Virus record (IMG/VR): IMGVR_UViG_3300025000_000141
Coordinates: 1-51,644 of that record
Source: a virus
Strand: one strand, 5' to 3'
DNA length: 51,644 nucleotides
Shown here: positions 1 to 35,967 of the stretch, in pieces
Position numbering within the stretch: position 1 is the first letter of the stretch
Layout: each line of letters begins with the position of its first letter
Translations under genes and position numbers: made by a program
Notes under the pieces: model-generated
What the model was told of the DNA's origin: nothing
Databases searched by the model: none
What the model saw: the letters and a program-made list of their open reading frames with translations, nothing else

Positions 1-218
1 CTACGCTCAATGAAATGGTCTAGAGGGCCTTCCGTCTCCTCGTCATAGGGAGAGTCTATCCCGTCAGATACTAAATCTATAACCCCCTTGTACGTGGCAC
101 AAGAGAACCTACTAATACCGTCACCAAAAGCAGCACCTATATTAGTTTGCTCCAGCACTGTAACATAGGCCAGGTTTTTGTCATCAGACAGCCTAGCCCT
201 AACCTTTAAATGCTTCAT
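1..218 (-). CDS. EQTH-family protein, partial (runs off the window edge)
   Basis: My translation starts at ATG 218 and stays open to base 1 (about 72 codons). It opens MKHLKVRARLSDDK and carries VTVLEQTNIGAAFG, the N-terminal half of the paralog family seen 12 more times here (H-[IL]-K near the start, E-Q-[TS]-[HN] near residue 25). The C-terminal half is outside the window. ATGA overlap with the stop of the upstream 45-aa gene indicates translational coupling; AGAGGTG precedes the start. Function unknown. Confidence 0.8.
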   Translation of the reverse strand, partial: MKHLKVRARLSDDKNLAYVTVLEQTNIGAAFGDGISRFSCATYKGVIDLVSDGIDSPYDEETEGPLDHFIER

Positions 219-352
219 CTTTCACCTCTTGTACCGTAATTAGGATTGATGATTGTGGCTACGCATTTAGGGCAATGCAGTACCCGACATACGGTGCAGT
301 CATCTTTATTGAAGCTAGTTTCCTTACCGCAGCAAGGGCATTTAATAGTCAC
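215..352 (-). CDS. small zinc-finger-like protein (45 aa)
   Basis: A GTG-started frame beginning VTIKCPCCGKETSFN and ending NYGTRGER. It has C-P-C-C, C-x2-C and C-P-K-C clusters, i.e. two treble-clef or ribbon-type zinc sites in 45 residues. Its GTG overlaps the TGA of the upstream 98-aa gene (GTGA) and its TGA overlaps the next ATG (ATGA), so three genes form a coupled chain. No specific function is recognisable; it is one of many tiny zinc-ribbon proteins in this window. Confidence 0.7.
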   Translation of the reverse strand: MTIKCPCCGKETSFNKDDCTVCRVLHCPKCVATIINPNYGTRGER

Positions 353-645
353 TTTACACCTCCCCAGTCAATAAGCCTCTCAAGCCACCTGTCGTTGTAG
401 TCGCAAAAACCTATAGGCCACCTTCTAAGCCTACCGTTGCGGTCTATTTCCAGCAATGTGTCTTCAAAGTAAAGATCAATAACAACACTACTGATCTTAC
501 CTTCATTAACTAGGACTCTAGCAGCGGTAATAACATTTTCTGTTGATACTACCATGTCTTTATTTTCGGCATAATGTGTTAATACGTACTCCTCTGCTAA
601 ACAATCAGAAACAGGAGAACCTGATTTTGAGTAAACGAGCTTCAT
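349..645 (-). CDS. hypothetical protein (98 aa)
   Basis: 98 residues from ATG with AGGAGG well placed upstream. Acidic, with a helical middle (ENVITAARVLVNEGK) and a Trp-rich C-terminal half (RRWPIGF, DRWLERLIDWGG). No family recognised, no signal peptide or membrane segment. First gene of a three-gene coupled set ending in the partial EQTH gene. Its ATG lies about 20 bp from the inverted repeat at 664-679. Confidence 0.75.
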   Translation of the reverse strand: MKLVYSKSGSPVSDCLAEEYVLTHYAENKDMVVSTENVITAARVLVNEGKISSVVIDLYFEDTLLEIDRNGRLRRWPIGFCDYNDRWLERLIDWGGVK

Positions 646-663
646 GGTAGTTACCTCCTAAAT

Positions 664-679
664 GTAGAATATGTTCTAC
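664..679. repeat. intercistronic inverted repeat GTAGAA-TATG-TTCTAC (site 1)
   Basis: Perfect 6-bp arms around a 4-base centre. It supplies the TAG stop of the ThyX-like gene and lies just upstream of the ribosome site of the next gene. First of 21 such sites in the window. Confidence 0.85.
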
Positions 680-1683
680 TTCTTAAATAAATTTCCACAG
701 CATTTAAGCTCTGGGCATATACCATTCCTGAACTCGCACTCACGTACCATGTACTTAGGTAGGTAAGGGTCTACTAAAGCAACAGCTTCCTTAATAGCTT
801 GCATTACTTCTTGTGTTTCTTTGGATGCTTGGCCGCATAGACGTTTTTTTGACATGTTTATAAGGGCTTCGGCGTTAACTATCATAGTATGGTCTACTCC
901 ATCATACCTGAACCCAGTTTCAAAGTTAGTTTGGGCAAACCTCCCAAAATACTTAATAGCTGCTTTATCATACACCGTGGCAGCCTCTTTAGCGGTCTCA
1001 TAATCTCCTAGGTACACAGTAGTATAACTAACGCGGATTCTTGCACTATATTTTTTTGAATCTTTTCTAAAAATAACCCCTTTAAACCCAGACGAATTGT
1101 TTGCTCTTTTTTTAACGTTTGCAGCGTTAAGGCTCTGGTTTGCAGCTCGTAAATTTTCTATCCTATCATCACCAGCAATACCATTAATATGATCTACTAT
1201 CTTCGGGCATTTGCCAGTTATCATAGTAAAAATAATCTTATGCCTCAGTATAAGACCGCTCCCTTTTAAAACAACTCCAAAGTACCCGGTAGCCAACCTG
1301 TACCCCGCCTTATCGCCTACTTTTATTCTGTTAGACCTAGATACTTTCCAAAATAGTTCTCCATCCTTATATTCAAAAAGTTCATTCAGAGCTTCCTTAG
1401 TGTACCCATAGCAGGTATTGTAGATTATTATCCCATCCATAATCCTATCCTCCCGCTTGCTAGAAACAAAGTGATCTATCCCTACATGGTGTCTAGCAAA
1501 ATGTGTAGATACGAACGCTGGTATGTTTTCCATTTTAATTTTAAAAATTTGTGTACGCATAGGAGAATGCTGCGCCCTATACATCTTGTCTAGTGTTATT
1601 TTACTTATAGGTATACCAGCAGTAGTAGCACAAACTTCCTGCATTAATTTTTCATCTGTTAGTTTTTTAGCAATTACTTCCAC
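676..1683 (-). CDS. ThyX-superfamily-like protein with in-frame HNH/AP2 endonuclease insert
   Basis: 335 aa from a GTG start (GAGGAGG upstream), overlapping the previous gene by 10 bp. Residues about 1-80 (SPMRTQIFKIK, STHFARHHVGIDHFVSSKR) and about 258-335 (DHTMIVNAEALINMSKKRL, then a Cys-rich end) look like the two halves of a phage FAD-dependent thymidylate synthase-like protein. Between them, about residues 92-254, lies a complete HNH homing endonuclease: typical opening (LNELFEYKDGELFWK), HNH core (IVDHINGIAGDDRIENLR) and AP2-type DNA-binding domain (GFKGVIFRKDSKKYSARI to YFGRFAQTNF). I see no intein splice motifs and no stop between the parts. It may be read through as one fusion, or the insert may be removed as RNA. 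The insert looks more A/T-rich than the flanks. The ThyX assignment is moderate; the HNH/AP2 assignment is strong. Confidence 0.7.
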   Translation of the reverse strand: MEVIAKKLTDEKLMQEVCATTAGIPISKITLDKMYRAQHSPMRTQIFKIKMENIPAFVSTHFARHHVGIDHFVSSKREDRIMDGIIIYNTCYGYTKEALNELFEYKDGELFWKVSRSNRIKVGDKAGYRLATGYFGVVLKGSGLILRHKIIFTMITGKCPKIVDHINGIAGDDRIENLRAANQSLNAANVKKRANNSSGFKGVIFRKDSKKYSARIRVSYTTVYLGDYETAKEAATVYDKAAIKYFGRFAQTNFETGFRYDGVDHTMIVNAEALINMSKKRLCGQASKETQEVMQAIKEAVALVDPYLPKYMVRECEFRNGICPELKCCGNLFKK

Positions 1684-4757: not shown

Positions 4758-5977
4758 TACTTATCGTCCTCCTTGGTTGATTTTGTTTCTTCCGTTACAG
4801 TAACAGGATCGCCCTCTTTGCCGACATGGAAGGGGTCTTTTGTATCTGTAGTTTTGGTCTCACCTATAAGTTTGAAATACACTTCGATCTGCTTGTGTAT
4901 CTCATCGTCAGCGTCAAGGTAAACGTCACGAAGATATTTTAAATCTTCGTCGGTTAGTAGCTCCATAAGTCCGTTCATTATCTCGCCGCAAGTGTCATCG
5001 CAGTCACTCCACTGGTAGCCGCAAGACATACAGAACCCTCCCTGCGTAACGAACTTAAGCGCAAGATCTATGGTTGACCGTCCTACGGAGTCAATCCATA
5101 AAGTATCCGAACTCTGCGTAGTAGTCGTAGTCGTAGGGAGGTTGTTCTTTTTTCCGTTGTCAGTCCCTTTATACTCATACGGCTTGTAGTTGTTGACATA
5201 CTTCACCTTAGCAGTAGCCGGGTATAGCTTGTCGATAGGAGCCTTAAGCATGCCCATCACCCTGCCTATGGTCATGTACATTTCGTCAATGTGCATGTAC
5301 TCATTTGCTGAATGCTGCTGGTAGTATCCGATTGACAAGTTTACCGCAGGAATCAAATACTCTTCCTGCAGATCAGCAATGTCAGAGTACGAGCCGTGGC
5401 TGCTCCTGAACCCGAAACTTTCAACGTAATTTATAACTTCGGTTGGTAACTTAGTTCCGTAAGTAACCCAATCATTACAGCCTTGGCGGTCCATTTCAAC
5501 AAACAATCTGGTGTTCCTGTTGTCGTACTTCTTGAACACTTCAGTTGCAACGAACACCCGCACGCCTTTGCCTCCGCTTTCTTCGCCGTTTGTAAGAATG
5601 ACGCTAGGCATCGGGAGCTTTTCTTTTCGGCATCTTCGCACAAGGTCGATGCAAGCAAAAACACCAGCGCGATCATCTCCACCAAGAACGCCTGTGGAAT
5701 TTCGAAGAACGTTCCTGTTCTGCACAAGATTGTAGACCTTTCCTGCATGGAATTCATGACGAGGTTTTTCACCCACTTGGAGTTGCGGGTCGCGAACGGT
5801 GTCCATGTGAGCAACTATGCATATCGGGCTGTCGCCAACTGCGTACACGAAGTTATCGCTGTGTATGTATACGTTTTTATATTCACTGCCTAAGAATTTT
5901 GTAGCAGCGGTTACTACTTCAAGTGTTGTCATGCTCAGAACTTCCTGAACGGTACTCATCAGCTTTGTAGGCTTCAT
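4757..5977 (-). CDS. M20/M42-like metallopeptidase with C-terminal Cys cluster
   Basis: 406 aa, AGGAGG upstream. Zinc-peptidase motifs in order: CIVAHMDTVRD (about 55), GVLGGDDRAGVFA (about 99), LTNGEESGGKG (about 128), RLFVEMDRQGCND and HSANEYMHIDEM. This is the co-catalytic zinc exopeptidase pattern (PepT/M42 type), probably cytoplasmic since no signal peptide is seen. After residue about 285 there is a Thr-rich linker, then CMSCGYQWSDCDDTCG, a Cys cluster not typical of the family. Role for a phage unclear: peptide recycling, or processing a specific substrate. Confidence 0.8.
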   Translation of the reverse strand: MKPTKLMSTVQEVLSMTTLEVVTAATKFLGSEYKNVYIHSDNFVYAVGDSPICIVAHMDTVRDPQLQVGEKPRHEFHAGKVYNLVQNRNVLRNSTGVLGGDDRAGVFACIDLVRRCRKEKLPMPSVILTNGEESGGKGVRVFVATEVFKKYDNRNTRLFVEMDRQGCNDWVTYGTKLPTEVINYVESFGFRSSHGSYSDIADLQEEYLIPAVNLSIGYYQQHSANEYMHIDEMYMTIGRVMGMLKAPIDKLYPATAKVKYVNNYKPYEYKGTDNGKKNNLPTTTTTTQSSDTLWIDSVGRSTIDLALKFVTQGGFCMSCGYQWSDCDDTCGEIMNGLMELLTDEDLKYLRDVYLDADDEIHKQIEVYFKLIGETKTTDTKDPFHVGKEGDPVTVTEETKSTKEDDK

Positions 5978-11175: not shown

Positions 11176-11497
11176 TTAATCTTTGAAATACTCGTTGTAT
11201 TCGTTAACCGCAGCTACTACCTCAGGCCAACGCGCAAATGGAATTGACAGTTCGAAGTTATCTTCGTTTTTGTTATCTCCTTTGAGGAAAACATAATAGT
11301 GCTCACCTTCAAGAAAAGCCTCCGGCCTTCCCAAATCACTCATTAATATGACTAGATTCGATGCCTTAAATTGATCTTCATATGCTCGGTCTTCGTAGGC
11401 ACACCCGAACTCTTTATACACATGGGTCTGCTCTATTATTCTGACGCGCATTCTATCACCTTCGTCAGGCTTAGCTATCAGGCTTAATGTGCTTCAT
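11176..11497 (-). pseudogene. EQTH-family gene with frameshift after the start
   Basis: A standard family start with AGGAGG upstream (ATG 11497, M-K-H-I-K-P) reads only eight codons before a stop. The rest of the family domain continues in another frame (AKPDEGDRMRVRIIEQTHVY, VFLKGDNKNEDNF, PEVVAAVNEYNEYFKD). A single-base change around 11475-11490 would restore one reading frame. The downstream part could still be made as a 91-aa protein from ATG 11451, which has GAAGGTG at a usable distance. So: a recently damaged copy, internal initiation, a programmed shift or a sequencing error. Confidence 0.65.
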
Positions 11498-13130: not shown

Positions 13131-13228
13131 ATTAAAAAATTATAATGTTTGACATGCATTTTTTACTTGACAAAATCAACTTTTTGTGGTATAATGCATT
13201 CATCGAGCCGTTAGGCGAAGATGAATGC
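13131..13228 (+). promoter_or_regulatory. rightward promoter module with UP-like element and inverted repeat (copy 1)
   Basis: A 19-bp A/T element (ATTAAAAAATTATAATGTT, 13131-13149) lies 17 bp before TTGACA (13167-13172). A 17-bp spacer ending TTTGTGG precedes TATAAT (13190-13195). Directly after the -10 is the inverted repeat GCATTCATC (13196-13204) / GATGAATGC (13220-13228). The -10 to repeat block recurs nearly identically at 51542-51582. The first arm overlaps the predicted start site (about 13202), so the repeat may work as a DNA operator rather than an RNA hairpin. Confidence 0.85.
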
Positions 13229-13330
13229 TATAGGGTTTTAAGGTTATGCCTTGCTGTATGCCTTGCTGTATGCTTTGCTTATGACCTTAACCCTGTGTCT
13301 ACCCCGCCCGAAGGGCGGGAGGCGTTTTAA
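13202..13330 (+). ncRNA. predicted small RNA with repeat-containing loop and terminator
   Basis: Begins at the start site set by the promoter. A long stem is formed by AGGGTTTTAAGGTTAT (13232-13247) and ATGACCTTAACCCT (13281-13294). The loop holds two exact copies of ATGCCTTGCTGT plus a third degenerate copy. It ends in hairpin CCCGCCC-GAA-GGGCGGG (13303-13319) with TTTT at 13325-13328. A 12-codon frame M-P-C-C-M-P-C-C-M-L-C-L (13246-13284) lies in the loop, with AAGG two bases before its ATG, so a leader peptide is an alternative reading. Confidence 0.6.
13303..13328 (+). terminator. rho-independent terminator of the small RNA
   Basis: Perfect 7-bp G/C stem with GAA loop, then AGGCGTTTT. 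Ends the rightward transcript 10 bp before inverted-repeat site 4. Confidence 0.7.
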
Positions 13331-13337
13331 TGAGAAT

Positions 13338-13353
13338 GTAGAACATGTTCTAC
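13338..13353. repeat. intercistronic inverted repeat GTAGAA-CATG-TTCTAC (site 4)
   Basis: Fully symmetric 16 bp. It supplies the TAG stop of the NAMPT-like gene and separates the converging rightward RNA from it. Confidence 0.85.
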
Positions 13354-14885
13354 CGGCCAAGTAACCTTGCACGTATATCTGATAGGTTACCGTCAACCAA
13401 CAGCACCCCGTCCTTAAATATTGGACGCAGTAGGTCAGTGCCAGCTGCCGCTATCATGTTTTGGTTGGCTATTGACAATCCATCAATAGCCTCAATACCT
13501 TCAGCAGTCTGGACTACAACAACCCTACCGGTCAATGACTTTTTGATCTTGTCTGTATCAGTGGCAGGATCTTTGAAGATATTAACTTCCTTTCCTTTAA
13601 TTACGCAGTGCGTTGACTTCATAGCGAAACCAAAGGTATCCCTAGTATTGTATTGGTAGGTGTACGAACCTATACCAAATACAATATTTGTGGAAGCGAA
13701 TCCTTTGCGCTTTAGGCGCTCGCAGATGTCTTTAGCCCTCTCAATGGTTATAGAGTCGCCGTAGATAGCGCCTATGTGGGGGTCAAGCTGCTTGTATCCT
13801 TTGCTGTTGATAGTGCCTCCGAAGGTATCCCACAGGATTTCTATGAGTCCTTTATAGGCGCTTTCACTACACTCCGGGTCAAACCTCTCAACATATACCT
13901 CGTAAGTGGAATAGTCAATCGTAGTGTTTAGCCCACAAATAATATCAGCAGGATCTCCAGAATCAGGACGGATTACAACTTTACCATCCCTAGCCATGAT
14001 AATATCTTTGAGCTTAGGAAGAATATTGCTGGTAACATGCCACAAATCCCAAGTATCAGATACGAGAGATACAATTCCCGTAGGATATACGTCTTGGATT
14101 AATCTACGAAATGTTTCATACTCATCTACTTTTCCTCCAGCGCAGACTACGCTGTGCTCAGTCGCCGGAACGCTACAGCCCACCAATTCTTTTTCGATAT
14201 TGGCGTTGTATTTATCCTCAAGATAAAGTATAGCCGGAATAGTGTCTGTTCCTACAAACGATAGCAAGTGCCCTGCCCCACTTACACAAGCTGCTTCTAC
14301 GGCCCCCATACCCCGCATTGAGAAATCGTGCCCCTGGAACTGCACGAAGTCTGGCATATCAGAAGTTTCCTCAGCGTATCTAGAAAGAATTTTGTGATAT
14401 TCATACGCGATAGTGGCACTTGTGGAACCCTGCCACATCTCACACGAGGCCAAGGTTTCAATGTAGTTGGTAAGCCAGCCGAATCGTGGGTCGGTATTCT
14501 CAACAGTAAGCATAGGAACCCTTAGTGGAACAAGCGTTCCCTCCGGGACCGCTTTTATCAACAAAGGAAGATGCCCAAGTTCATGTAGCGCTCTTATATG
14601 TGTAGTATCAGGTTCCGCCACGCCTAACGTGAATTTAATCACCCTGCCGTACTCTCCAGCAACTTCATCAACAGGACGGCTGAAGAAGTTTTCGTTAAAG
14701 AAGTCGATAAGCCAGTCTTTAACGAACCCCTGGAAGGAAAACGCCACCACTTTGTCAACGAACTTAATCCTTGACGTGCGAGGAATCCATGTGCTGTACA
14801 CAATCTCAGTTCCGTCAGGATACTGGTCCTTGTGTCCGATTTTGTAGAAATCACACAGTAACGTTGCAATTAGTCCTTTACGCAT
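13350..14885 (-). CDS. nadV: nicotinamide phosphoribosyltransferase family protein (NAMPT/NadV or NARP1 Namat type)
   Basis: 511 aa, the usual NAMPT length. Family landmarks: start CDFYKIGHKDQYPDGTEIVY, then TWIPRTSR, FQGHDFSMRGMGAVEAACVS (residues about 184-203), HSVVCAGG, SDTWDLWHV, VIRPDSGDP and FGIGSYTYQYNTRDTFGFAM. The family joins nicotinamide to PRPP to give NMN. The gene overlaps the upstream PRPP-synthetase gene by 8 bp. The same two annotations are given to the Adps and Namat enzymes of the phage NARP1 pathway, which rebuilds NAD+ from ADP-ribose and counters NAD-depleting defences. Sequence alone does not separate the alternatives. GGAGG upstream. Confidence 0.9.
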   Translation of the reverse strand: MRKGLIATLLCDFYKIGHKDQYPDGTEIVYSTWIPRTSRIKFVDKVVAFSFQGFVKDWLIDFFNENFFSRPVDEVAGEYGRVIKFTLGVAEPDTTHIRALHELGHLPLLIKAVPEGTLVPLRVPMLTVENTDPRFGWLTNYIETLASCEMWQGSTSATIAYEYHKILSRYAEETSDMPDFVQFQGHDFSMRGMGAVEAACVSGAGHLLSFVGTDTIPAILYLEDKYNANIEKELVGCSVPATEHSVVCAGGKVDEYETFRRLIQDVYPTGIVSLVSDTWDLWHVTSNILPKLKDIIMARDGKVVIRPDSGDPADIICGLNTTIDYSTYEVYVERFDPECSESAYKGLIEILWDTFGGTINSKGYKQLDPHIGAIYGDSITIERAKDICERLKRKGFASTNIVFGIGSYTYQYNTRDTFGFAMKSTHCVIKGKEVNIFKDPATDTDKIKKSLTGRVVVVQTAEGIEAIDGLSIANQNMIAAAGTDLLRPIFKDGVLLVDGNLSDIRARLLGR

Positions 14886-15696
14886 CTCTTTTTACCTCCG
14901 TATAAAGTTGGTGTATGATAAGATTTTCTAGAGCAGTTGAATTACACATTATGCTGTTTGTAGTATATACTTCGTCTATTAACTTTGATGTAAATATTTT
15001 CCCTGAGAATATAGTGTGCTCACAATGAGCAACCATAAGGTAAATATTCGCAGCGCCATGGGATTTAAGCGCCTCGGCTGCCGCAATAAAAGTTCCGCCT
15101 TTGGAGCATAGATCGTCTACTATCAGAACTTTTTTACCTTTTACACCTGTGCCTGACACAGAGTATTTTATGATATCACCAGTCTTGAAATCCCTTTCCT
15201 TGCTACCTACAGCGGAAGGATACCTTGCAACGTGACTATATCTCTTCTCAGCTCCTGCATCTGGGTAGAAAAGTATGGTGTTGTCCATTCCGTGCTTATC
15301 AACAAAGAGGGCCATGAGGGCTGGTATAATACTAATGTTTGTACACCGGTTTAGAAGAGCAGTAGAAACGTCGGAATGTGCGTCAACTACTTTAACTCTC
15401 GCAAAGTGCATTGCGTTAATCATATCGCATATGTACTTTAAGTTGAAAGTGTATGTGTTGTTGGCTCTGTCCATTCTGCTGTACGGCATGTACAGAATCT
15501 TCAACGTCATTATGTTGTTCGGAATAACGTCATTCATGTAACTGCGAAGTATGTACAAGTCCATAAGGTCTTGATCGGTTTCGAACTTTAGTACAACAAC
15601 TGAGCTGTTGTGAAAAGTTATCTTATTGTAGTTCAGGTATCTTTCGTTGTTAGGAAAAACACCGAACTCAACTTTTACATTGTCAATTAAAATCAC
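14878..15696 (-). CDS. prs: ribose-phosphate pyrophosphokinase family protein (Prs or NARP1 Adps type)
   Basis: 272 aa from a GTG start (AAAGGAGG upstream), shorter than cellular Prs (about 310). Motifs: LKILYMPYSRMDRANN (residues 66-80), VVDAHSDVSTALLN (103-116), LFYPDAGAEKRY and the PRPP loop VLIVDDLCSKGGTF (190-203). It would make PRPP from ribose-5-phosphate and ATP for the partner transferase. In NARP1 the homologous enzyme adds pyrophosphate to ADP-ribose. Translational overlap with the partner supports one pathway. Confidence 0.88.
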   Translation of the reverse strand: MILIDNVKVEFGVFPNNERYLNYNKITFHNSSVVVLKFETDQDLMDLYILRSYMNDVIPNNIMTLKILYMPYSRMDRANNTYTFNLKYICDMINAMHFARVKVVDAHSDVSTALLNRCTNISIIPALMALFVDKHGMDNTILFYPDAGAEKRYSHVARYPSAVGSKERDFKTGDIIKYSVSGTGVKGKKVLIVDDLCSKGGTFIAAAEALKSHGAANIYLMVAHCEHTIFSGKIFTSKLIDEVYTTNSIMCNSTALENLIIHQLYTEVKRDA

Positions 15697-15719
15697 TGGA
15701 TGTTACCTCCTTTATTTAG

Positions 15720-15735
15720 GTAGAACATGTTCTAC
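15720..15735. repeat. intercistronic inverted repeat GTAGAA-CATG-TTCTAC (site 5)
   Basis: Supplies the TAG stop of the membrane-protein gene at 15732 and precedes the prs-like ribosome site by a few bases, i.e. it leads the prs/nadV pair. Confidence 0.85.
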
Positions 15736-16034: not shown

Positions 16035-17123
16035 TTATTCTTTCGCTTTTATATTTAGCACAGGTTTTATGAAATCAACTACATCAATAGTAATACCCTC
16101 CTGCGCCTTCATGACGTAGTTAATGTCTTTGTATGCCTCTGGAGCCTCATCTAGTATGCTCCTATCTGTGGAACAAACAACGCCTTCCATCTGGCCTACG
16201 AATTTATCGTAGTCAAGATTCTTCTTGGCGGCGTTTCTGCCCATAGTTCGTCCACACCCGTGAGACGCCGATGAAAGAAACTTTTCATTACCAAGTCCTT
16301 TGGTGATGTACACACCATCCCTCATATTAGCAGGAATTATGCCAAGTTGATGTGCGTCGGCTGGCGTAGCACCTTTTCGGTGCAGCACTCCTTCTTTTGT
16401 AATAATTGCGTGGTTATGGTTTTCGTTAATTAGAAGATTGCTCTTGTATGTGACACCGAGAATCTTACATATTTTGTTTATCATTTTTAACCTGTTATAT
16501 AACGCCCACTCTAACGCAAAATTCATATCCCCTAAGTAGGACAACCCAAGGTCTGATAATAAAGGAAACATTCTTCCTTGTTTCATGTACCACCCGCCTA
16601 TTGTATGCCCAACGTTACGACTTCCTGAATGAATAGTCACACAATACGTGCCAGTATTTTGGCTTATCCCTATCTCTATGAAGTGATTGCCCCCTCCTAG
16701 AGTACCTAGCTGCATAACAGATTTTTCTTTTACTCTCTGTTTCACTTCTTTAGGCATGTGAGAGTGGATAACATATTCAAAATGATAGTCTGACTTATCA
16801 AGAGATGAAAATCCAGTAGGGATGGTTTTAACTATATCATCGTATAACTGTTTAAGGTTATCCTTTGATAGCTCATACTGAGGTATGTTTGTGTCAACCG
16901 AGCACATACCACATCCCACGTCGAAGCCTACGAAGCTAGGAGAGATCATGCCGTCAAGCAAGGCCACTCCGCCGATTGGAAGATCATAACCAGCGTGAAC
17001 GTCAGGCATAATAGCCAATTTTTTAAGACATTCCAATGAAAGAACGTCATAAATCTGCTGCTGCGCTGACTGCTCTATTTCTTCCATCGGCACCATAGAC
17101 TGTAGTTTGTCAAGCTTGCTCAT
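16035..17123 (-). CDS. rtcB: RtcB-family RNA ligase
   Basis: 362 aa, at the short end for RtcB but with all landmarks: MPDVHAGYDLPIGGVAL (near 40), FVGFDVGCGMCSVDT (near 65, metal Cys), GTLGGGNHFIEI, VTIHSGSRNVGH, ENHNHAII, HRKGATPADAHQLGIIPANM and SSASHGCGRTMGRNAA (guanylylated His region). RtcB joins 2',3'-cyclic phosphate to 5'-OH ends using GTP and Mn2+, the ends left by anticodon nucleases and many toxins. With GluRS, tRNAs and a CCA-adding enzyme nearby, a tRNA-repair role is plausible. AAAGGAG upstream. Confidence 0.92.
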   Translation of the reverse strand: MSKLDKLQSMVPMEEIEQSAQQQIYDVLSLECLKKLAIMPDVHAGYDLPIGGVALLDGMISPSFVGFDVGCGMCSVDTNIPQYELSKDNLKQLYDDIVKTIPTGFSSLDKSDYHFEYVIHSHMPKEVKQRVKEKSVMQLGTLGGGNHFIEIGISQNTGTYCVTIHSGSRNVGHTIGGWYMKQGRMFPLLSDLGLSYLGDMNFALEWALYNRLKMINKICKILGVTYKSNLLINENHNHAIITKEGVLHRKGATPADAHQLGIIPANMRDGVYITKGLGNEKFLSSASHGCGRTMGRNAAKKNLDYDKFVGQMEGVVCSTDRSILDEAPEAYKDINYVMKAQEGITIDVVDFIKPVLNIKAKE

Positions 17124-17133
17124 ATAATCTCCT

Positions 17134-17484
17134 TTACTCCTTGAAATATTCGTTGTATGCTTCTACTGCGGCTTTGATTCTGGGCCAGTCTTCCGAATAA
17201 ATATCGAAAGTATGATAGTTTTGTATTGCAGACCCTCGCAGGTAGCATGTTAAAGTTGTTCGCCTAGCATGACTTACTACTTTTTGGGTGTGCGGAATAT
17301 TCCCAGCGTGTGATACTAGGCGCACTCCGTTATGACAGAAGTCTACCGCTTGTTGTATTTGTACTACCTTTGGCAACTTTAAATCCCCAAAATCAGTATG
17401 AAAATGAGTTTGCTCAAGTATAGTTACAGCAGCCGCAGTCCTATCCTCAGACAAAACACATTTAAGTTTTATATGTTTAGGCAT
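17134..17484 (-). CDS. EQTH-family protein (116 aa)
   Basis: Opens MPKHIKLKCVLSEDRTA, then AVTILEQTHFHTDFGDLKLP, FCHNGVRLVSHAGN, LTCYLRGSAIQN and RIKAAVEAYNEYFKE. Tandem with the paralog at 17487-17816; its AAGGAGTAA overlaps the stop of that gene. Confidence 0.85.
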   Translation of the reverse strand: MPKHIKLKCVLSEDRTAAAVTILEQTHFHTDFGDLKLPKVVQIQQAVDFCHNGVRLVSHAGNIPHTQKVVSHARRTTLTCYLRGSAIQNYHTFDIYSEDWPRIKAAVEAYNEYFKE

Positions 17485-17486
17485 AG

Positions 17487-17816
17487 TTACTCCTTGAAAT
17501 ATTCGTTGTAGGCTTTAACGGCCTCCTTAATTAAAGGCCACATGTCGGCAGGTACGTCGAACGCTACGTTTTTTCTACTACTGGATATTAACCTAACATC
17601 AACTTGCCCGTCAGTCTTGTTTCGTCCGTCAAAGTTAGGATAATTATGCGTAGCAGAGAACAGGTCAATAACTCCGTGTCTGAATACTCTGCTATGCATT
17701 CTACCGGAAATATTTCCTCCAAACTCATCATCAAAATGTGTCTGTTCAAGTATAGTCACGGATGCGGTTTGTTTGTTTTTAGATAGTATGGCGGATAATT
17801 TAAGGTGTTTATGCAT
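17487..17816 (-). CDS. EQTH-family protein (109 aa)
   Basis: Opens MHKHLKLSAILSKNKQTA, then SVTILEQTHFDDEFGGNISG, DVRLISSSRKN and LIKEAVKAYNEYFKE. ATG 17816 is preferred because GAAGGGG lies seven bases upstream. A GTG at 17822 overlapping the previous TGA (GTGA) is an alternative that adds two residues. Closest visible relative is the neighbour at 17134. Confidence 0.82.
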   Translation of the reverse strand: MHKHLKLSAILSKNKQTASVTILEQTHFDDEFGGNISGRMHSRVFRHGVIDLFSATHNYPNFDGRNKTDGQVDVRLISSSRKNVAFDVPADMWPLIKEAVKAYNEYFKE

Positions 17817-17818
17817 AT

Positions 17819-17998
17819 TCACCCCTTCAACACATCTTTGTCATCAACCCACACGTAGCCGGTAGCCAACTTGACTAAAGTTTTTCTGGCTACCCGCTCA
17901 TAGACCGCGCCTTTAACCCCAAGCGTAGGAATGAACACCTCTTCGCGTTGCTTGATTATATTGGCAGATTTCCTATATCTTTTGGTTTCGGATTTCAT
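17819..17998 (-). CDS. small hypothetical protein (59 aa)
   Basis: Opens MKSETKRYRKSANIIKQREE and ends YVWVDDKDVLKG. Basic. Its ATG overlaps the TGA of the upstream 47-aa gene (ATGA) and its TGA overlaps the possible GTG of the EQTH gene, giving a coupled chain. No domain recognised. Confidence 0.65.
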   Translation of the reverse strand: MKSETKRYRKSANIIKQREEVFIPTLGVKGAVYERVARKTLVKLATGYVWVDDKDVLKG

Positions 17999-18138
17999 TT
18001 ATCGTACCTCCCGAATCCCTTGCCTTTACGGGCCTGTTTCCGGTCTATCTTAAAGCCCTTGTCTTTTTCAACCTTCACGCCCTTTGTAGGAATCTTGCCG
18101 GACTTGATCTTCTCGAAGTTATTAGCGGATTGAGCCAT
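17995..18138 (-). CDS. small basic protein (47 aa)
   Basis: Opens MAQSANNFEKIKSGKIPTKG and ends KGKGFGRYDK; 15 Lys/Arg in 47 residues. AAAGGAG lies upstream. Likely binds nucleic acid on charge alone; no family recognised. Confidence 0.65.
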   Translation of the reverse strand: MAQSANNFEKIKSGKIPTKGVKVEKDKGFKIDRKQARKGKGFGRYDK

Positions 18139-18150
18139 TCGTAGTCTCCT

Positions 18151-18339
18151 TTACTTGGTAGCTTTCAGTAAGGTGTTGGTGTGGAGTCTTCTGCAGTAGC
18201 CGTAAGTCTCTCTGCGGCTGTATGAAACCCAAGCTAAACAAAACTTGGTCGCACAAAGGTTTCTATTTCCGTCTTCGTTTGATATTCCTACTCCGAAAGG
18301 ACAGCGTAGTTTTACAGCTTCTTCTTCCAGAATTCGCAT
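18151..18339 (-). CDS. small Cys-containing hypothetical protein (62 aa)
   Basis: ATG with AAAGGAG upstream. Opens MRILEEEAVKLRCPFGVG and has four Cys (C-P-F-G, L-C-A-T-K-F-C, Y-C-R-R) that could hold one metal. Function unknown. The 99 bases between it and gltX hold no gene I can support. Confidence 0.6.
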   Translation of the reverse strand: MRILEEEAVKLRCPFGVGISNEDGNRNLCATKFCLAWVSYSRRETYGYCRRLHTNTLLKATK

Positions 18340-18438
18340 TATTAATGTCTCCTTTGAATGCGGTTGATATTACTTTGGCGTAGTATAAAGCATTTTTAAA
18401 TGAGTCACCTAGCAGCCAATATTTTATAGTCAGTAGTA

Positions 18439-19785
18439 TCACTTTAACGCCGCCTTCATTCTTGCGACGGCCTCTTTCTTTCCAAGGACGTGCATTACAT
18501 TTACTACAGGAGGCGAAGCTGTTTTACCTGTGAGAGCCATGCGTATTTGCGGTCCGAGTTCTTTTAGCGTTACGTTATGTTTTTTACAGCCGTGGCTAAT
18601 GGCCTCTTCTATATCTTCTATAGAATAGGTCTTTTTCTTCTCAAGTATTTCCACTATGGAACCTACTGAATGATCGGCCCTTACCGCTTTAGGCTTTTTG
18701 TAATACACCTCAGCCATTTCTGCAATCTCAATTAAAGTCTTTGCCCTCGGCTGCAACAACTTCACAACCTCAATAATATCAGGGCCTTTGTCAGTTTTGT
18801 AGTGCATGAACGGCTTGGCTTGTTCCGCTATTCTCTTGGGATCGCCGTTCTTAATCCAATGCGCGTTAATGTGCAGCATTTTGTTCGGATCAAGACACCC
18901 TGGCGCTCTACCTACCGAATTAAGCGAGAACTTTTGTATCAGGTCGTCCATTGAGAATATTTCTTCATTCTTGTAGCTCCAGCCTACACGGGCAAGCCCA
19001 TTGACAACAGCCTCCGGAAGAAAACCTTTATCCCTGTAGTCAAGGACAGAAGCATCACCGTTTCTCTTACTGAGTTTTTCGCCTTTATCATTAAGGATGA
19101 ACGGGGTGTGGGCATATTCAGGAACCGGAAAGCCAAGCGCCTGATACAGCATAGTCTGGGCTGGCACGTTGCCTACTCCGTCAACGCCTCGGACAATATG
19201 TGTAACACCCTGTAGGGCATCATCAACCATATTTGCAAGGAGGTATCCTACGCTTCCGTCCTGCCGTTGGATTACGAAGTCGCTGATCTCGCTGTTCTTC
19301 ACGCTGATCTTTCCGAGAACATGATCTTTCCATTCTACGCGGCCCTGGTCTTGGGTCTTAAACCGTATGACGAATGGCTTTCCTTCTTGCTCTGGCTTTT
19401 CATAGCAGGTTCTATCGTAGAGGGGCTTTTGCTTGTTCCTCAGCATTTCATCCCTTTTTGCTGTGAGTTCTTCTGCCGTGCAGTAACACTTGTAGGCTTT
19501 TTTCTCTTTCAGGAGTTTATCTACGTATTCCTTGTAGATGTGACCTCGTTCGCTTTGGTAGATTATTTCTACGTCACTTTTGATGCCAAGCCAGTTGAGC
19601 CCTTCTAAAATGTTGTCTGCGAACTCTTGGGTAGATCTTGAAAAATCGGTATTCTCAATACGCACGATAAAAGTTCCTTTATGTTGCCTAGCAAAAATAT
19701 AATTATGCAAACTCTGGCGGGCCATCCCACAGTGCCCTGGGCCGGTGTTAGATGGTGCTACGCGGCATACAATAGGTTTAGTCAT
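18439..19785 (-). CDS. gltX: glutamyl-tRNA synthetase
   Basis: 448 aa from ATG 19785 (AAAGGAGA upstream); an upstream ATG inside the inverted repeat at 19816 is rejected. Class I synthetase: NTGPGHCGMARQSLHNY (HIGH-type signature, residues 13-27), VRIENTDFSRSTQEF, Cys pair KCYC at 99-102, GVTHIVRGVDGVGN, and KLSKRNGDASVLDY (KMSKS-type, 237-250), followed by an anticodon-binding domain rather shorter than usual (bacterial GluRS are about 470-490 aa). It charges tRNA-Glu with glutamate in the cytoplasm. An aminoacyl-tRNA synthetase in a phage is uncommon; a tRNA-Glu(UUC) gene lies at 33544-33618. Confidence 0.92.
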   Translation of the reverse strand: MTKPIVCRVAPSNTGPGHCGMARQSLHNYIFARQHKGTFIVRIENTDFSRSTQEFADNILEGLNWLGIKSDVEIIYQSERGHIYKEYVDKLLKEKKAYKCYCTAEELTAKRDEMLRNKQKPLYDRTCYEKPEQEGKPFVIRFKTQDQGRVEWKDHVLGKISVKNSEISDFVIQRQDGSVGYLLANMVDDALQGVTHIVRGVDGVGNVPAQTMLYQALGFPVPEYAHTPFILNDKGEKLSKRNGDASVLDYRDKGFLPEAVVNGLARVGWSYKNEEIFSMDDLIQKFSLNSVGRAPGCLDPNKMLHINAHWIKNGDPKRIAEQAKPFMHYKTDKGPDIIEVVKLLQPRAKTLIEIAEMAEVYYKKPKAVRADHSVGSIVEILEKKKTYSIEDIEEAISHGCKKHNVTLKELGPQIRMALTGKTASPPVVNVMHVLGKKEAVARMKAALK

Positions 19786-19815
19786 AATTAAATTCTCCTT
19801 TGTGTTAGTTTGTAA

Positions 19816-19831
19816 GTAGAACATTTTCTAC
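19816..19831. repeat. inverted repeat GTAGAA-CATT-TTCTAC (site 6)
   Basis: Arms intact with asymmetric centre. Lies about 30 bp upstream of the gltX start, with no minus-strand gene on its other side, so it is not simply a by-product of stop codons. Confidence 0.8.
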
Positions 19832-25446: not shown

Positions 25447-25869
25447 CTATTGTGCTTCGTTTTTGTCGTAGATAGCGGCATACAAGGGTATATTGGCCGT
25501 GCAGCACTGTGAGTTGTAGGCTGCCAAATCGTAGCCTACAACTGCGAACGCCTTGTACATCATTATCCATAGCTTGAGTTCGGCTATCCTTTTGCGGACT
25601 GCCTTGCCGAACACGTAGAAGCGGATGGTGCGTATGATTGGGAGGCGCAGAATAGCATATTCTGCTACTGTTGGTAGTCCTTCGTATCTATTACATCTAT
25701 GCCCTTTTATACTTATCCACGGGCAGGAGTCGCACTTAAGATTACTTACTTTGCACAAAGAACAACCCGTATAGGTCGTCTTGTGCGTGTATTTACGATA
25801 CTCCACTATAAGCTGTTCCATAGCCTTGATATTCTCTTTGACGTTTACCGGGGCCTTAAGCAGTCGCAT
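25447..25869 (-). CDS. Cys-rich hypothetical protein (140 aa)
   Basis: Opens with a helix (NVKENIKAMEQLIVEYRKY), then CSLCKVSNLKCDSCPWISI and HRCNRYEG, a five-Cys cluster that could bind zinc or an Fe-S group. A hydrophobic helical half with QCCTANIP follows. It overlaps the CCA-adding enzyme gene by 14 bp. Function unknown. Confidence 0.7.
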   Translation of the reverse strand: MRLLKAPVNVKENIKAMEQLIVEYRKYTHKTTYTGCSLCKVSNLKCDSCPWISIKGHRCNRYEGLPTVAEYAILRLPIIRTIRFYVFGKAVRKRIAELKLWIMMYKAFAVVGYDLAAYNSQCCTANIPLYAAIYDKNEAQ

Positions 25870-27232
25870 TTTTGATTTCTCCTTTTTCTATGAGGGTTTT
25901 AGTGTATAACAGCCCGTCTTCCCTTGTCAAGAACTTTTCTTCCATTTGGTCTTCATACAGCCGTTGGAGGATAGCGCCGAAATGTTTTCCAGGCTCCATG
26001 CCCATATCAATAAGGTCTCGGCCAAGAATAATCGGGGTGACTTGTGATTTTATTTCCTCGAACACGCGCATGACCTCAGAAATCCTAGCTGAGTTTTCAG
26101 GCTCATATTCAGCGGCTACAACACCACCACGTCCAAGCCTATCCGCCTTGTGCAATTTTACTAGCTTATACATGTCAACCGAGGCGGCCAACTTGCGCAC
26201 AGCCTTACGGCTCACCCCTGCTTTCTTAAAATCGTAAGGCCTCATGTGATGCTTAATGAGATTTATAGCGGATTCAGTAAGTCCTATCTCATTTGTTAGC
26301 CGAGCGATAGCCTTTTCAGCCAAAGAAGTCTCTTCCGCGTGACCTTTGAAATGAATCTTACCGCTGTCTTCTGTGTTGACCTCATTAGGAACAAGCCCCT
26401 TCCCTAAATCATGAAATAAGAGGGCCAGCATAATATCCAATTCCCTGTCAATAACAGGAATGGCATCTATTGCCATAAGGGTGTGATTATACACGGAACC
26501 TTCTGGATGATACGTGCTTCCTTGTTCAATTTTCTTGGTAGCGACCAGCTCAGGAAACAGTACATCGAGAATGTCCATAGCCTCAAGCGTCTTGAAGAAA
26601 ACGGATGGAAGAGGAGCGTTCATTAGAACTCGCACCACTTCATTAAACACTCGTTCCTGAGGCAGAGCTTTAACTTTAATTGGGCCGTGTACTTTGCATA
26701 GCGCCATTGTTTGAGCTTCTATGTTCATGAACGGGTAAATAGCCTTGAACCTCGCTACTCTCAATATACGCAAAGGGTCTTCCATGAATGTGCCAACATT
26801 CACGTGCTTTATGCGCAAGATACGAAGGTCAGGTATCCCATTAAACGGGTCTTCGAACTTACCCGTCAACGGATCGAGGTAAATAGCGTTCATCGTCAAG
26901 TCCCTACGAACCGCTGCCAAGCTCAACGGCAGCTCTTCGCGTATCCTAGCGGTTAGATCACGGTGTCCTTCGCCAGTTTGCTCATCAAGCCTCGGCAGGC
27001 TAACGTCAATATCTTTGACTTTGTAAACTCCGTATTGCTTGCCTACGTAGTTGACCTCACCGAAAGTTTCGAGAACTGCTTCGAGCTTCTCGGCTGAGAG
27101 GTTGAAAACTTCAATGTCTATGTCGGTGGAAGGTATGCCTAGGAGTAAATTTCTTACGTGGCCTCCTGTATAAAAAACTGAACCTCCCGCCTTGTGAATT
27201 GCCAACGATAGTTCAAGCGCAAACTTTTGCAT
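25856..27232 (-). CDS. cca: tRNA nucleotidyltransferase (CCA-adding) / poly(A) polymerase family, with HD domain
   Basis: 458 aa. Nucleotidyltransferase head: FYTGGHVRNLLLG (residues about 20-32), STDIDIEVFN catalytic Asp pair, VRRDLTMNAIYLDPLTG, EDPFNGIPDL and FMEDPLRILRVARFKA. HD half: DIMLALLFHDLGKGL, HFKGHAEETS and IKHHMRPYD. The architecture matches bacterial CCA enzymes with an HD domain. It would repair or add 3' CCA on tRNA. Relevant because one tRNA-like gene here lacks an encoded CCA. TAAGGAGA upstream. Confidence 0.9.
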   Translation of the reverse strand: MQKFALELSLAIHKAGGSVFYTGGHVRNLLLGIPSTDIDIEVFNLSAEKLEAVLETFGEVNYVGKQYGVYKVKDIDVSLPRLDEQTGEGHRDLTARIREELPLSLAAVRRDLTMNAIYLDPLTGKFEDPFNGIPDLRILRIKHVNVGTFMEDPLRILRVARFKAIYPFMNIEAQTMALCKVHGPIKVKALPQERVFNEVVRVLMNAPLPSVFFKTLEAMDILDVLFPELVATKKIEQGSTYHPEGSVYNHTLMAIDAIPVIDRELDIMLALLFHDLGKGLVPNEVNTEDSGKIHFKGHAEETSLAEKAIARLTNEIGLTESAINLIKHHMRPYDFKKAGVSRKAVRKLAASVDMYKLVKLHKADRLGRGGVVAAEYEPENSARISEVMRVFEEIKSQVTPIILGRDLIDMGMEPGKHFGAILQRLYEDQMEEKFLTREDGLLYTKTLIEKGEIKNATA

Positions 27233-33543: not shown

Positions 33544-33618
33544 TGGCGTCCCTTACAGGATTTGAACCTGTGTCTCTCGCGTGAAAGGCGAGTGTCCTGT
33601 CCACTAGACTAAAGGGAC
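33544..33618 (-). tRNA. tRNA-Glu (anticodon UUC), CCA encoded
   Basis: Minus strand folds as a full cloverleaf: acceptor GTCCCTT/AAGGGAC, anticodon arm CTCGC-CTTTCAC-GCGAG with TTC at 34-36, T-arm ACAGG-TTCAAAT-CCTGT, discriminator G and encoded CCA. All canonical positions present, unlike several other tRNAs here. Its cognate synthetase is encoded at 18439-19785. Confidence 0.95.
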
Positions 33619-33622
33619 GTAT

Positions 33623-34012
33623 CTACGCTGCATCGTCTGGCTCTTCATCCCAGTACTTTGATATATCGGCTTTCTCTTTTTCGGTGGCGTCAGTAACAGA
33701 AAGCAACTTCCTAAGAATTCCGTAGAATTCGTCTGCTTCCTCTGCTACAACTCCGCCATCTACGTTGTCCAGCCAATAATCTATTGTCTTAAACTCTGCT
33801 AGTGTTAGCAGAGGTTTTTGCGCGCCTGTAGAAGATATAGCTTTAAGCGCTCTATTGTAAGAATCTACCTCTTGCTGAAGTTCCTCTAGGTGTATTGATA
33901 ACTCTCCAAACCTAACAAACATAGAGTCTCCGTCTTTATCCTTGTGGGACTTAACTAAGTGCTTGCGTATAAGATCGCGAGACTCTGTAATCCTGGACTC
34001 AGACAACTTCAT
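33623..34012 (-). CDS. coiled-coil hypothetical prot. (129 aa)
   Basis: Acidic, mostly helical: ITESRDLIRKHLVKSHKDKD, FGELSIHLEELQQEVDSYNR, EADEFYGILRKLLSVTDATE. CAGGAGG upstream. Four bases from the tRNA-Glu 5' end, so probably cotranscribed with it. Confidence 0.65.
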   Translation of the reverse strand: MKLSESRITESRDLIRKHLVKSHKDKDGDSMFVRFGELSIHLEELQQEVDSYNRALKAISSTGAQKPLLTLAEFKTIDYWLDNVDGGVVAEEADEFYGILRKLLSVTDATEKEKADISKYWDEEPDDAA

Positions 34013-34106
34013 TTTACCTCCTGATAGAAAAGAGTTAGTAACCGCTACTTAGCTTACGAGGGCCTCGGATTTCGCACCCAACCATTAGAAATGGCCTTGT
34101 AGTTTG

Positions 34107-34126
34107 GCGGGCCGGAGCAGGCCCGC
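34107..34126. terminator. GC-rich hairpin
   Basis: GCGGGCC-GGAGCA-GGCCCGC then ATTTATT on the plus strand. It sits in the 200-bp gap 34013-34213, which otherwise holds only an AAGGAGG followed by a two-codon frame (ATG CTC TAA). Confidence 0.6.
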
Positions 34127-34213
34127 ATTTATTCAGTTGTATGTTGGTGTATGTTAGAGCATTGTTATACACCTCCTTTCTCTATGCCGGAAAGGAGTCC
34201 AGCAACTCAAGTG

Positions 34214-34229
34214 GTAGAACATGTTCTAC
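34214..34229. repeat. intercistronic inverted repeat GTAGAA-CATG-TTCTAC (site 15)
   Basis: Fully symmetric. Supplies the TAG stop of the 34226 gene. The next gene to the left is about 200 bp away, unlike most sites. Confidence 0.85.
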
Positions 34230-34438
34230 TTACTACAAAACTGCCTAACTGCATTAACTACTTTGACGTAGGCGTAGCCTGTGAAGTAATTGTTGGCCAC
34301 TTCTTTCAGAAACTTCTTGGACGGAGCTGTGGTAACGTCCATCTTTAGGTGCGCAGACAACGCACTCTTGAATTCTTCATCCGTCATTTTACCATCAACG
34401 AACTCTCTCATTATCTGCTTGGTCATTGGTTGACTCAT
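34226..34438 (-). CDS. hypothetical protein (70 aa)
   Basis: MSQPMTKQIMREFVDGKMTD, then EEFKSALSAHLKMD and AYVKVVNAVRQFCSK. ATG 34438 chosen because GGGGATAAGG precedes it; ATG 34465 (adds MFYEHGDKA) has no ribosome site. No domain recognised. Confidence 0.55.
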   Translation of the reverse strand: MSQPMTKQIMREFVDGKMTDEEFKSALSAHLKMDVTTAPSKKFLKEVANNYFTGYAYVKVVNAVRQFCSK

Positions 34439-34518
34439 GGCCTTATCCCCATGCTCATAAAACATGTTTTTATAGGGGTTACAAAACAGCCCCTAAGCAG
34501 CTGACTAACTTTTAATAC

Positions 34519-34689
34519 TCAGCATACGCAGTTTGCAATAGGGTGTCGGCATTCAGCACAACAAATTCCCCTGGTTTCATCGACCTTAATCTTTATTGCA
34601 ACTGGCTTAGGCATATTAACTATAGCCTTAGCAAATTCTTTAATCGACTCCTTTTTTCTCTTTCGACGTTTCTTTTCTTGCTGGGACAT
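34519..34689 (-). CDS. small basic protein with C-terminal Cys cluster (56 aa)
   Basis: Opens MSQQEKKRRKRKKESIKEFA and ends RGICCAECRHPIANCVC. Basic N-terminus plus a compact C-C-x2-C...C-x-C metal site. GGAGGG upstream. Possible nucleic-acid binder. Confidence 0.6.
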   Translation of the reverse strand: MSQQEKKRRKRKKESIKEFAKAIVNMPKPVAIKIKVDETRGICCAECRHPIANCVC

Positions 34690-34728
34690 TACGCCCTCCT
34701 TTGGGCAATAGGCTACCGCGAAGTATCC

Positions 34729-34860
34729 TTATTTCGAGTTAACCCTTACCGAGAAGGTAGCACCGGAGCGAACAACCACAGACGTTGATTTCTTCTTTCC
34801 TTTTTCCGCCAGTTGGCAACCTAGCGCCTTTTCCAGCATAGCAACCACTGATGTAGCCAT
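34729..34860 (-). CDS. small hypothetical protein (43 aa)
   Basis: Product MATSVVAMLEKALGCQLAEK, GKKKSTSVVVRSGATFSVRV, NSK. CAAGGAGG lies upstream. Folds plausibly as helix plus beta hairpin; unrecognised. Confidence 0.55.
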   Translation of the reverse strand: MATSVVAMLEKALGCQLAEKGKKKSTSVVVRSGATFSVRVNSK

Positions 34861-34891
34861 GACATTTCCCTCCTTGGATTAATTAAATTAG

Positions 34892-35296
34892 CTACCTCTT
34901 AGAGGCAACTTGAATAGTCTTCTTGTCTACTTCTTTACCATCTTCGTCTCTGATAACTACGGTTATGTACGTGGAACCGCGTTCCTTGACAGCTACGGTA
35001 TGCGTCATAGGGACATATTGCTTAATGTGCTTTACAACATCTCCTAGAAGGAAGAAAGACATTCCATCCATGAAGTAGCTACGACTCGGAACACGCTCAA
35101 CATCTTCGTGGCCGACGTTTATGATATGATTCCAGTTGCCAGCGGGAATGCTGTGTACAGGATCATACATATACACTCTTAGATGCTCTTTGGCAACCTC
35201 AAGAACCAGGCCAGTACCTCCTATGAGGCTGGTGGAGTAATCGCCATGGTACTTTAGGATTCTAACTGCTGATCCTTTCTTAATGTCTGGGTTCAT
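34892..35296 (-). CDS. hypothetical protein with SH3-like N-terminus (134 aa)
   Basis: Residues 6-40 (KGSAVRILKYHGDYSTSLIG, GTGLVLEVAKEHLRVYM) have the turn-rich beta pattern of KOW/SH3-like barrels. The second half is beta-rich with Lys/Glu (HTVAVKERGSTYITVVIRDE). AAGGAG upstream. Function unknown. Confidence 0.65.
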   Translation of the reverse strand: MNPDIKKGSAVRILKYHGDYSTSLIGGTGLVLEVAKEHLRVYMYDPVHSIPAGNWNHIINVGHEDVERVPSRSYFMDGMSFFLLGDVVKHIKQYVPMTHTVAVKERGSTYITVVIRDEDGKEVDKKTIQVASKR

Positions 35297-35319
35297 GATG
35301 TGCTCCTTGCTATTTATTT

Positions 35320-35388
35320 TTAAGCACCAAAGAACTTTCTTTCCGCTTCTTTCTGCTTTCTGGCTGACTTACGATCTACCTTGCTCAT
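35320..35388 (-). CDS. very small basic protein (22 aa)
   Basis: MSKVDRKSARKQKEAERKFF then GA. Consensus AAGGAGG eight bases upstream of ATG. Single basic helix; real translation likely from the ribosome site, function unknown. Confidence 0.45.
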   Translation of the reverse strand: MSKVDRKSARKQKEAERKFFGA

Positions 35389-35439
35389 AACGCCTCCTTA
35401 GTCATTGAATGTGTGCCATGATAACCGACCATGCAGAAG

Positions 35440-35455
35440 GTAGAACATGTTCTAC
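35440..35455. repeat. inverted repeat GTAGAA-CATG-TTCTAC (site 16)
   Basis: Extended to AGGTAGAACATGTTCTACCT. About 50 bp upstream of the 22-aa gene start. Confidence 0.85.
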
Positions 35456-35464
35456 CTAACTTAT

Positions 35465-35606
35465 GTTGTTTGATTTCATTTTCAAAGCTTCTTGTAGGGA
35501 CTAAGGTAGCCTTGAAAATAACATCAAAGGTATTTTGGAGGCAGACTATTAGCGGTCTGCCAGCGCACCAGCGACAACTGGAAACAGTTTTAAGTCATGC
35601 TTAGGA
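35465..35606. ncRNA. predicted structured RNA region
   Basis: A 21-bp stem (35469-35489 with 35508-35528, 18 of 21 matched) encloses 18 bases. It is followed by GGCAGAC-N8-GTCTGCC (35540-35561) and AACTG-GAAA-CAGTT. The hairpins occupy the gap downstream of the 20-codon frame at 35607-35669. No coding frame. Strand not determined. Confidence 0.5.
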
Positions 35607-35669
35607 CTATAGCATTGCGCCGGAGCAGCAGGGGGCTACAGCGGGAAGCATCCATTTGATCGTTTTCAT
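35607..35669 (-). CDS. possible 20-aa leader or toxin-like peptide
   Basis: Peptide MKTIKWMLPAVAPCCSGAML starting at ATG 35669 with consensus AAAGGAGG at ideal distance. Short basic start, hydrophobic middle, Cys pair. Directly followed on its strand by the hairpin-rich region, so either a leader peptide for that RNA or a tiny membrane peptide. Confidence 0.4.
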   Translation of the reverse strand: MKTIKWMLPAVAPCCSGAML

Positions 35670-35696
35670 GGTGATTCCTCCTTTCTTTTGGGTTAA

Positions 35697-35921
35697 TTAA
35701 CAGTATTTACCATCCAAAGGGATGAATGTGACTATGTTTCTAGCGCCGTCTGGGATATGTTGAAAGTAATCTTGAAGACAGCACACCCAGGCCTCTTCTG
35801 TGGTTTTGCTAATACCATGTCCTGGCGTTCTCCAATATCCTTTATCAGTAATGTATATGTGCCCTTTAGTTTCTAAGGGAAGGGCTTTAATTTCTTCTTG
35901 GGTTAGTGTTTGAGGTGGCAT
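35697..35921 (-). CDS. hypothetical protein (74 aa)
   Basis: MPPQTLTQEEIKALPLETKG, HIYITDKGYWRTPGHGISKT, then AWVCCLQDYFQHIPDG. TAGGAGA upstream. Unrecognised. It is the last ordinary gene before the iteron-like array. Confidence 0.65.
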   Translation of the reverse strand: MPPQTLTQEEIKALPLETKGHIYITDKGYWRTPGHGISKTTEEAWVCCLQDYFQHIPDGARNIVTFIPLDGKYC

Positions 35922-35966: not shown

Positions 35967-35967
35967 C

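Follow-up and report, generated by a model that had tools for sequence, protein, structure and literature searches.

The systems closest to the locus described here are of the NARP1 type, in which an Adps and a Namat enzyme are encoded together. The pairs of SPbetaL1 and P. foliorum work both in vitro and in cells (PMC12774641), Adps and Namat of mycobacteriophage DyoEdafos produce NAD+ from ADPR in vitro (PMC13232231), and when Vibrio phage ICP1 infects a strain that has the NAD+-depleting Nezha, its NrsAB increases the NAD+ level (PMC11559045). The structures of SPbetaL1 Namat (9W5W/9W5X) have allowed its contacts with NAM, NAD+ and adenine to be mapped. The adenine selectivity clamp of this enzyme consists of R40, F392, Y396, T398 and D400 (consensus GSX-phi-X-phi-X-phi-TRD); in general terms it is defined as GS-X-phi-X-phi-X-phi-TRD with an aromatic X, together with R, K or Y in the SCL loop. 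The R40A/F392G double mutation abolishes the protection and most of the NAD+ production but spares PRPP chemistry, and the wild-type enzyme retains some PRPP-dependent NMN synthesis (PMC12774641).

The two genes analyzed below very probably constitute a NARP1 pair, which would rebuild NAD+ from the products of a defence NADase and let infection continue. The family membership and the active-site conservation are direct observations; both reactions and the anti-defence effect are assigned by analogy with characterised homologs, of which those of SPbetaL1 and DyoEdafos were studied in vitro and NrsAB of ICP1 in infected cells. A host defence NADase of the TIR, SIR2 or SEFIR type would split NAD+ into ADP-ribose and nicotinamide. 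With ATP as the pyrophosphate donor, Adps would then convert ADP-ribose into ADPR-PP, which Namat would join to nicotinamide to yield NAD+ in a single step. Such a route would have no need of an NMN adenylyltransferase, and infection could proceed despite the defence. The locus is a well-supported further example of a known phage counter-defence and not a new kind of system.

Source DNA and related contig

The stretch of DNA analyzed, hereafter the window, is the whole of IMG/VR record IMGVR_UViG_3300025000_000141 (51,644 bp). Both proteins of the pair are encoded at 100% identity in an independent IMG/VR contig of 113,294 bp, IMGVR_UViG_3300025010_000004 (G001), which shows 99.9% nucleotide identity to window positions 1674–44942 and ends in a 127-bp direct terminal repeat. 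This match and the repeat make G001 a probable complete genome of the virus from which the window comes. At either end of the window (1–1673 and 44943–51644) the match to G001 is piecemeal, with 87–96% identity in place of the 99.9% seen across the central 43 kb, and this is strain mosaicism. Separate searches were made for NMN adenylyltransferase, for RyR domains and for integrase, which would have indicated a temperate lifestyle; the last of these found none. A phage nucleotide search with the operon region gave no match.

Organization of the operon

The adps-like gene (14878–15696, minus strand; 272 aa, GTG start) specifies an Adps-clade homolog of PRPP synthetase, predicted to be an ADP-ribose pyrophosphokinase. 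The namat-like gene (13350–14885, minus strand; 511 aa, ATG start) specifies a predicted nicotinamide ADP-ribose transferase. The original prediction of an overlapping unit of PRPP-synthetase-like and NAMPT-like reading frames at 13350–15696 was thus exact in its coordinates. The genes are adjacent on one strand with adps upstream, the order also seen in SPbetaL1, Bas63 and Douge. The adps stop and the namat start overlap by 8 nt (ATGCGTAA; 14878–14885, minus strand), an arrangement consistent with translational coupling. Each start has a strong Shine-Dalgarno sequence ahead of it (AAAGGAGGTAACATCCAGTG and GGAGGTAAAAAGAGATG), AAGGAGG at 15706–15712 for adps and GGAGG at 14895–14899, within the 3' end of adps, for namat (both minus strand). 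Since the proteins are 100% identical in G001, and since neighbouring homologs of both genes are present in dozens of other virus contigs, this is not a chance pair of ORFs.

The Namat-like protein

The Namat-like protein contains the Pfam domains NAPRTase (2.8e-44) and NAMPT_N (1.7e-5). Its top match among PDB sequences is SPbetaL1 Namat (9W5W/9W5X; 60% identity, 660 bits, E-value 1.7e-198), and it scores about 228 bits against mammalian NAMPT. Alignment to SPbetaL1 at 22 catalytic, NAD+-contact and clamp positions revealed 20 that are kept and two conservative changes, F392Y and A362S in SPbetaL1 numbering (Y408 and S378 of the window protein). The NAMPT-like catalytic core (SPbetaL1 D13, Y15, F189, R192, D215, H245, R306 and D308) is present, and R40, Y394, Y396, T398, R399 and D400 are all retained.

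The adenine selectivity clamp is complete, comprising GSYTYQYNTRD and R39. The codons of this helix motif (residues 406–416) lie at 13638–13670, Y408 and Y412 occupying the adenine-stacking positions in an alignment based on PMC12774641, and that of the loop residue R39 (SPbetaL1 R40) is at 14769–14771. The alignment also places the codon of the catalytic, phosphorylated histidine H244 at 14154–14156 and that of R306 at 13968–13970, the equivalent SPbetaL1 R306 being essential for catalysis as judged from mutants (PMC12774641); all four features are on the minus strand. By comparison, KVP40 NadV, Ccr32, Klebsiella P-KP2, C. metallidurans NadV and mouse NAMPT possess the catalytic core but no aromatic clamp, having Gly or Ala at position 392 and Leu or Ala at 394.

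Phylogeny against Prs and NadV had been set beforehand as the test by which a NARP1 reading could be refuted, and the pair fell on the NARP1 side of both splits (100/100 and 100/99). In the Namat tree, where the separation from NAMPT/NadV is supported at 100/100, the window protein and SPbetaL1 are both on the Namat side, SPbetaL1 being the nearest characterised row. The window protein groups with those of loci L013–L015 (100/99), which is a local grouping only, and the deep placement of Ccr32 and Aeromonas 65.2 is unsure owing to long branches. As a separate observation, two loci that do possess Adps, L104 (Aeromonas phage 65.2; GSWGFLKNASRD) and L106 (Listeria phage LMTA-34; GAYMYSFSLSRD), have divergent Namat clamps, possibly functional variants.

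The Adps-like protein

The Adps-like protein contains Pribosyl_synth (1e-9) and Pribosyltran (5.5e-9) Pfam domains, matches Prs chains among PDB sequences (E-value 1.5e-15) and aligns with SPbetaL1 Adps along 95% of its length at 41% identity. In the Adps tree the split from Prs (seq­uences of seven Prs) is supported at 100/99, and the window protein and SPbetaL1 belong to a 15-row clade, likewise at 100/99. Its shortness had earlier been read as fitting a specialised enzyme, and 272 aa is indeed typical of Adps: the homologs range from 244 to 328 aa with a median of 284 (n=85), and SPbetaL1 Adps is itself 272 aa long.

Residues 193–203, VDDLCSKGGTF (codons at 15088–15120, minus strand; from the alignment), are the Adps-type form of the Prs loop VDDMIDTGGTL, with T225 and L229 of E. 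coli Prs replaced by K199 and F203. In Prs structures this is the loop that holds the 5'-phosphate group of ribose-5-phosphate. None of the 85 Adps has the threonine at position 225 (G, Y, R, F, K, A or N being found instead), and every one of them has Phe at position 229. In seven diverse Prs, position 225 is always T or S, and Phe does not occur at 229. A further set of 79 Prs, nearly all gammaproteobacterial, invariably has T at 225 with L at 229; the search pattern for this set contained VDDM[IV]D, and it is informative for these two positions only. Two loop subgroups could be discerned among the Adps of loci L013–L106, S-x-GGTF in Bacillus, Staphylococcus and Listeria phages and the window virus, and DICDGGxTF in most others; the Prs threonine is missing from both.

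The substrate selectivity of Adps has been termed obscure (PMC12774641). We tentatively suggest that the family-wide change in the loop might represent the switch from ribose-5-phosphate to ADP-ribose, the window protein having the Ser-x-Gly-Gly-Thr-Phe solution (with Lys) as against the commoner Asp-Gly-Gly. A causal role of this signature would supply the specificity rule that the pathway's first enzyme has so far lacked.

Genomic context

A total of 159 virus loci were compared, 79 recovered with the window Namat as query and 80 with a five-sequence alignment of NAMPT-type proteins; KVP40 NadV as a lone query had matched only itself and one near-copy. A scan of viral contigs with the single Adps sequence returned the same virus only, and it was the Namat query that yielded a useful set. 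The aromatic clamp is present in 79/79 of the Namat-query loci versus 0/80 of the NAMPT-type loci. An Adps neighbour accompanies 72 of the 79 clamp-type loci (in 47 of these 72 it directly precedes the Namat gene on the same strand) and none of the 80 NAMPT-type, while NadM-like neighbours show the reverse, with 0/79 and 64/80, respectively. These loci are related to one another and are not independent events; the separation is nonetheless complete.

It had been pointed out that no NMN adenylyltransferase was visible. This is true of the window and equally of the 113-kb G001, neither of which gave a match to PF01467 in a search that was positive in 14/14 control genomes, and the operon lacks the NMN adenylyltransferase neighbour of NARP2. 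The clamp, the Adps-type loop, the two trees and a context resembling NARP1 rather than NARP2 together support the original prediction of a NARP1-type pair.

Separately, locus L016 carries two small ORFs (4800–5350) between adps and namat. RyDEP is likewise inserted in the NARP1 operon of mycobacteriophage DyoEdafos, and such inserted genes may deserve attention.

Other possible roles of the pair

The pair could carry out NARP1 chemistry mainly to supply phage replication with a larger or better-protected NAD+ pool, and not to oppose a specific immune NADase. This is improbable, since the reuse of ADP-ribose pays mainly where NADases release large amounts of it. NARP1 homologs do occur on bacterial replicons as well, including Paenibacillus plasmids and the P. 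foliorum pair (PMC12774641), which would suit such a role, but functional NrsAB costs ICP1 fitness where the defence is absent (PMC11559045), which argues against a general benefit.

Less probable still is plain nicotinamide salvage, in which PRPP would be formed from ribose-5-phosphate and used to make NMN, a host NMN adenylyltransferase completing NAD+. The curated models do give the proteins generic family names that would fit it: TIGR01251, ribose-phosphate diphosphokinase, for the Adps-like protein (115 bits against a cut-off of 113, SPbetaL1 Adps falling slightly below) and PRK09198, nicotinate phosphoribosyltransferase, for the Namat-like protein and for SPbetaL1 Namat too. NadV of the H. 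ducreyi plasmid pNAD1 (L092), a known salvage enzyme, is 48.6% identical to the window Namat and is nested within the Namat clade. However, its motif is GAQTYQRNTRD, without the aromatics at 392 and 396, and it has no Adps neighbour, whereas the clamp of the window protein is complete. It serves as a useful negative control, as overall similarity alone would have misled. Nor does the Adps loop, with K199, retain the Prs threonine; both trees put the pair on the NARP1 side, and the neighbours of NAMPT-type phage loci are NadM-like, not Adps-like. Because SPbetaL1 Namat keeps PRPP-dependent activity (PMC12774641), salvage may be a secondary capability of the pair. With regard to the H. ducreyi protein itself, whose motif recurs in PDB 9KE8, a reversion from ADPR-PP to PRPP use is possible.

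It is scarcely credible that the two genes have decayed or no longer function, given intact frames, strong ribosome-binding sites, retention of every catalytic residue, 100% identity in the second contig and homologous pairs in relatives (52–53% identity for Adps, 61–68% for Namat).

Regulatory sequences and neighbouring genes

An exact copy of the palindrome TAGAACATGTTCTA is present at each end of the proposed NARP1 operon. The copy at 15721–15734 falls between adps and its upstream neighbour and closely precedes the adps ribosome-binding site; the copy at 13339–13352 is at the 3' end of namat and supplies the TAG stop codon of that gene. With up to two mismatches the window contains 22 copies versus 0.23 expected, 20 of them beyond the operon pair, between 665 and 38694. 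They take the form of a 14–16 bp (G)TAGAA-N4-TTCTA(C) sequence and mostly stand directly before ribosome-binding sites. G001 has 31 TAGAA-N4-TTCTA sites (0.24 expected), most of them 20–50 bp ahead of a gene start. The corresponding position in front of adps is taken in the relatives L014 and L015 by another palindrome, GGTAATTACC, which is also scattered through the contigs of both. These elements probably form a repressor/operator network whose specificity differs between relatives. The mycobacteriophage stoperators described in PMC9283540 are comparable but asymmetric, whereas the sites in the window are palindromic.

Convergent with namat on the plus strand, at 13167–13340, is a probable small RNA gene. 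It has a perfect extended sigma-70 promoter (TTGACA-17-TATAAT), and the predicted transcript is structured (z-score -6.3), with a 3' hairpin, CCCGCCC-GAA-GGGCGGG, followed by GGCGTTTT. Copies are found in G001 at 36248–36405 and at 92334–92403 (window 51513–51582), the pairing in the 5' hairpin being preserved through two-sided changes between copies. No Rfam family was assigned to the candidate, the best match being far below the gathering score and on the opposite strand.

Genes for RNA repair and translation are located near the operon (16035–19824, 25856–27232 and 33544–44857), among them those for an RtcB ligase (16035–17123), a glutamyl-tRNA synthetase (18439–19824), a CCA-adding-type nucleotidyltransferase (25856–27232) and tRNA-Glu, -Ser and -Thr. 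A phage GluRS beside RtcB and NARP1 is unusual. RtcB lies near NARP1 in the relative L014 too. A conserved NARP1-RtcB module was considered and dropped: apart from the window virus, only two loci show the association, L014 and more distantly L035, and GltX accompanies NARP1 in no other locus. Comparison of the neighbouring genes with PHROGs gave matches only to RtcB and the generic Prs family. A family of paralogous proteins of about 100 aa is encoded at 349–645, 11176–11451, 17134–17484 and 17487–17822, three of them ending in YNEYFK(E/D); the copies at 11176, 17134 and 17487 have no match in PHROGs. The family is present in several copies per genome and adjoins NARP1 in L014 and L015 as well.

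Comparison with known systems

The locus provides a well-supported example of NARP1 from an uncultivated environmental phage that is far in sequence from cultivated ones. It also yields a sharp computational rule, by which a clamp with Adps denotes NARP1, and the lack of a clamp with a NadM-like neighbour denotes NAD+ salvage; this separates genes that are given identical database names.

E. coli Prs has homologous sequence and the DD loop in common with the window Adps, but the two are in separate clades (100/99) and T225 and L229 contrast with K199 and F203. NARP2-type loci, comprising a NAMPT and an NMN adenylyltransferase (Caulobacter phage Ccr32; KVP40 NadV), share the NAMPT-fold catalytic core with the window; they have no aromatic clamp, and the neighbour, where seen, is NadM-like instead of Adps-like. 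The mycobacteriophage NARP1 operon with RyDEP (PMC13232231; the relative compared was phage Douge) has Adps and Namat as in the window. In the window, in contrast, no gene separates adps from namat; searches of it and of the 113-kb G001 gave no match to a RyR-domain companion. NrsAB of Vibrio phage ICP1 (PMC11559045) has the same Adps-Namat order and the clamp motif GSYTYQYVTRD; its Adps belongs to the DG-loop subgroup (VDDICDGAASF), that of the window to the S-x-G-G-T-F subgroup. NARP1 of SPbetaL1 (Adps WIT26982.1, Namat WIT26983.1; PDB 9W5W/9W5X) differs from the window in sequence (60% identity for Namat, 41% for Adps), in the length of the gene overlap (1 nt versus 8 nt, both short), in lacking an insertion of about 17 residues that follows residue 318 of the window Namat, and in its flanking genes, none of which are in common. 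It resembles the window in gene order, in its 272-aa Adps and in all of the Namat catalytic and clamp residues, with two conservative changes.
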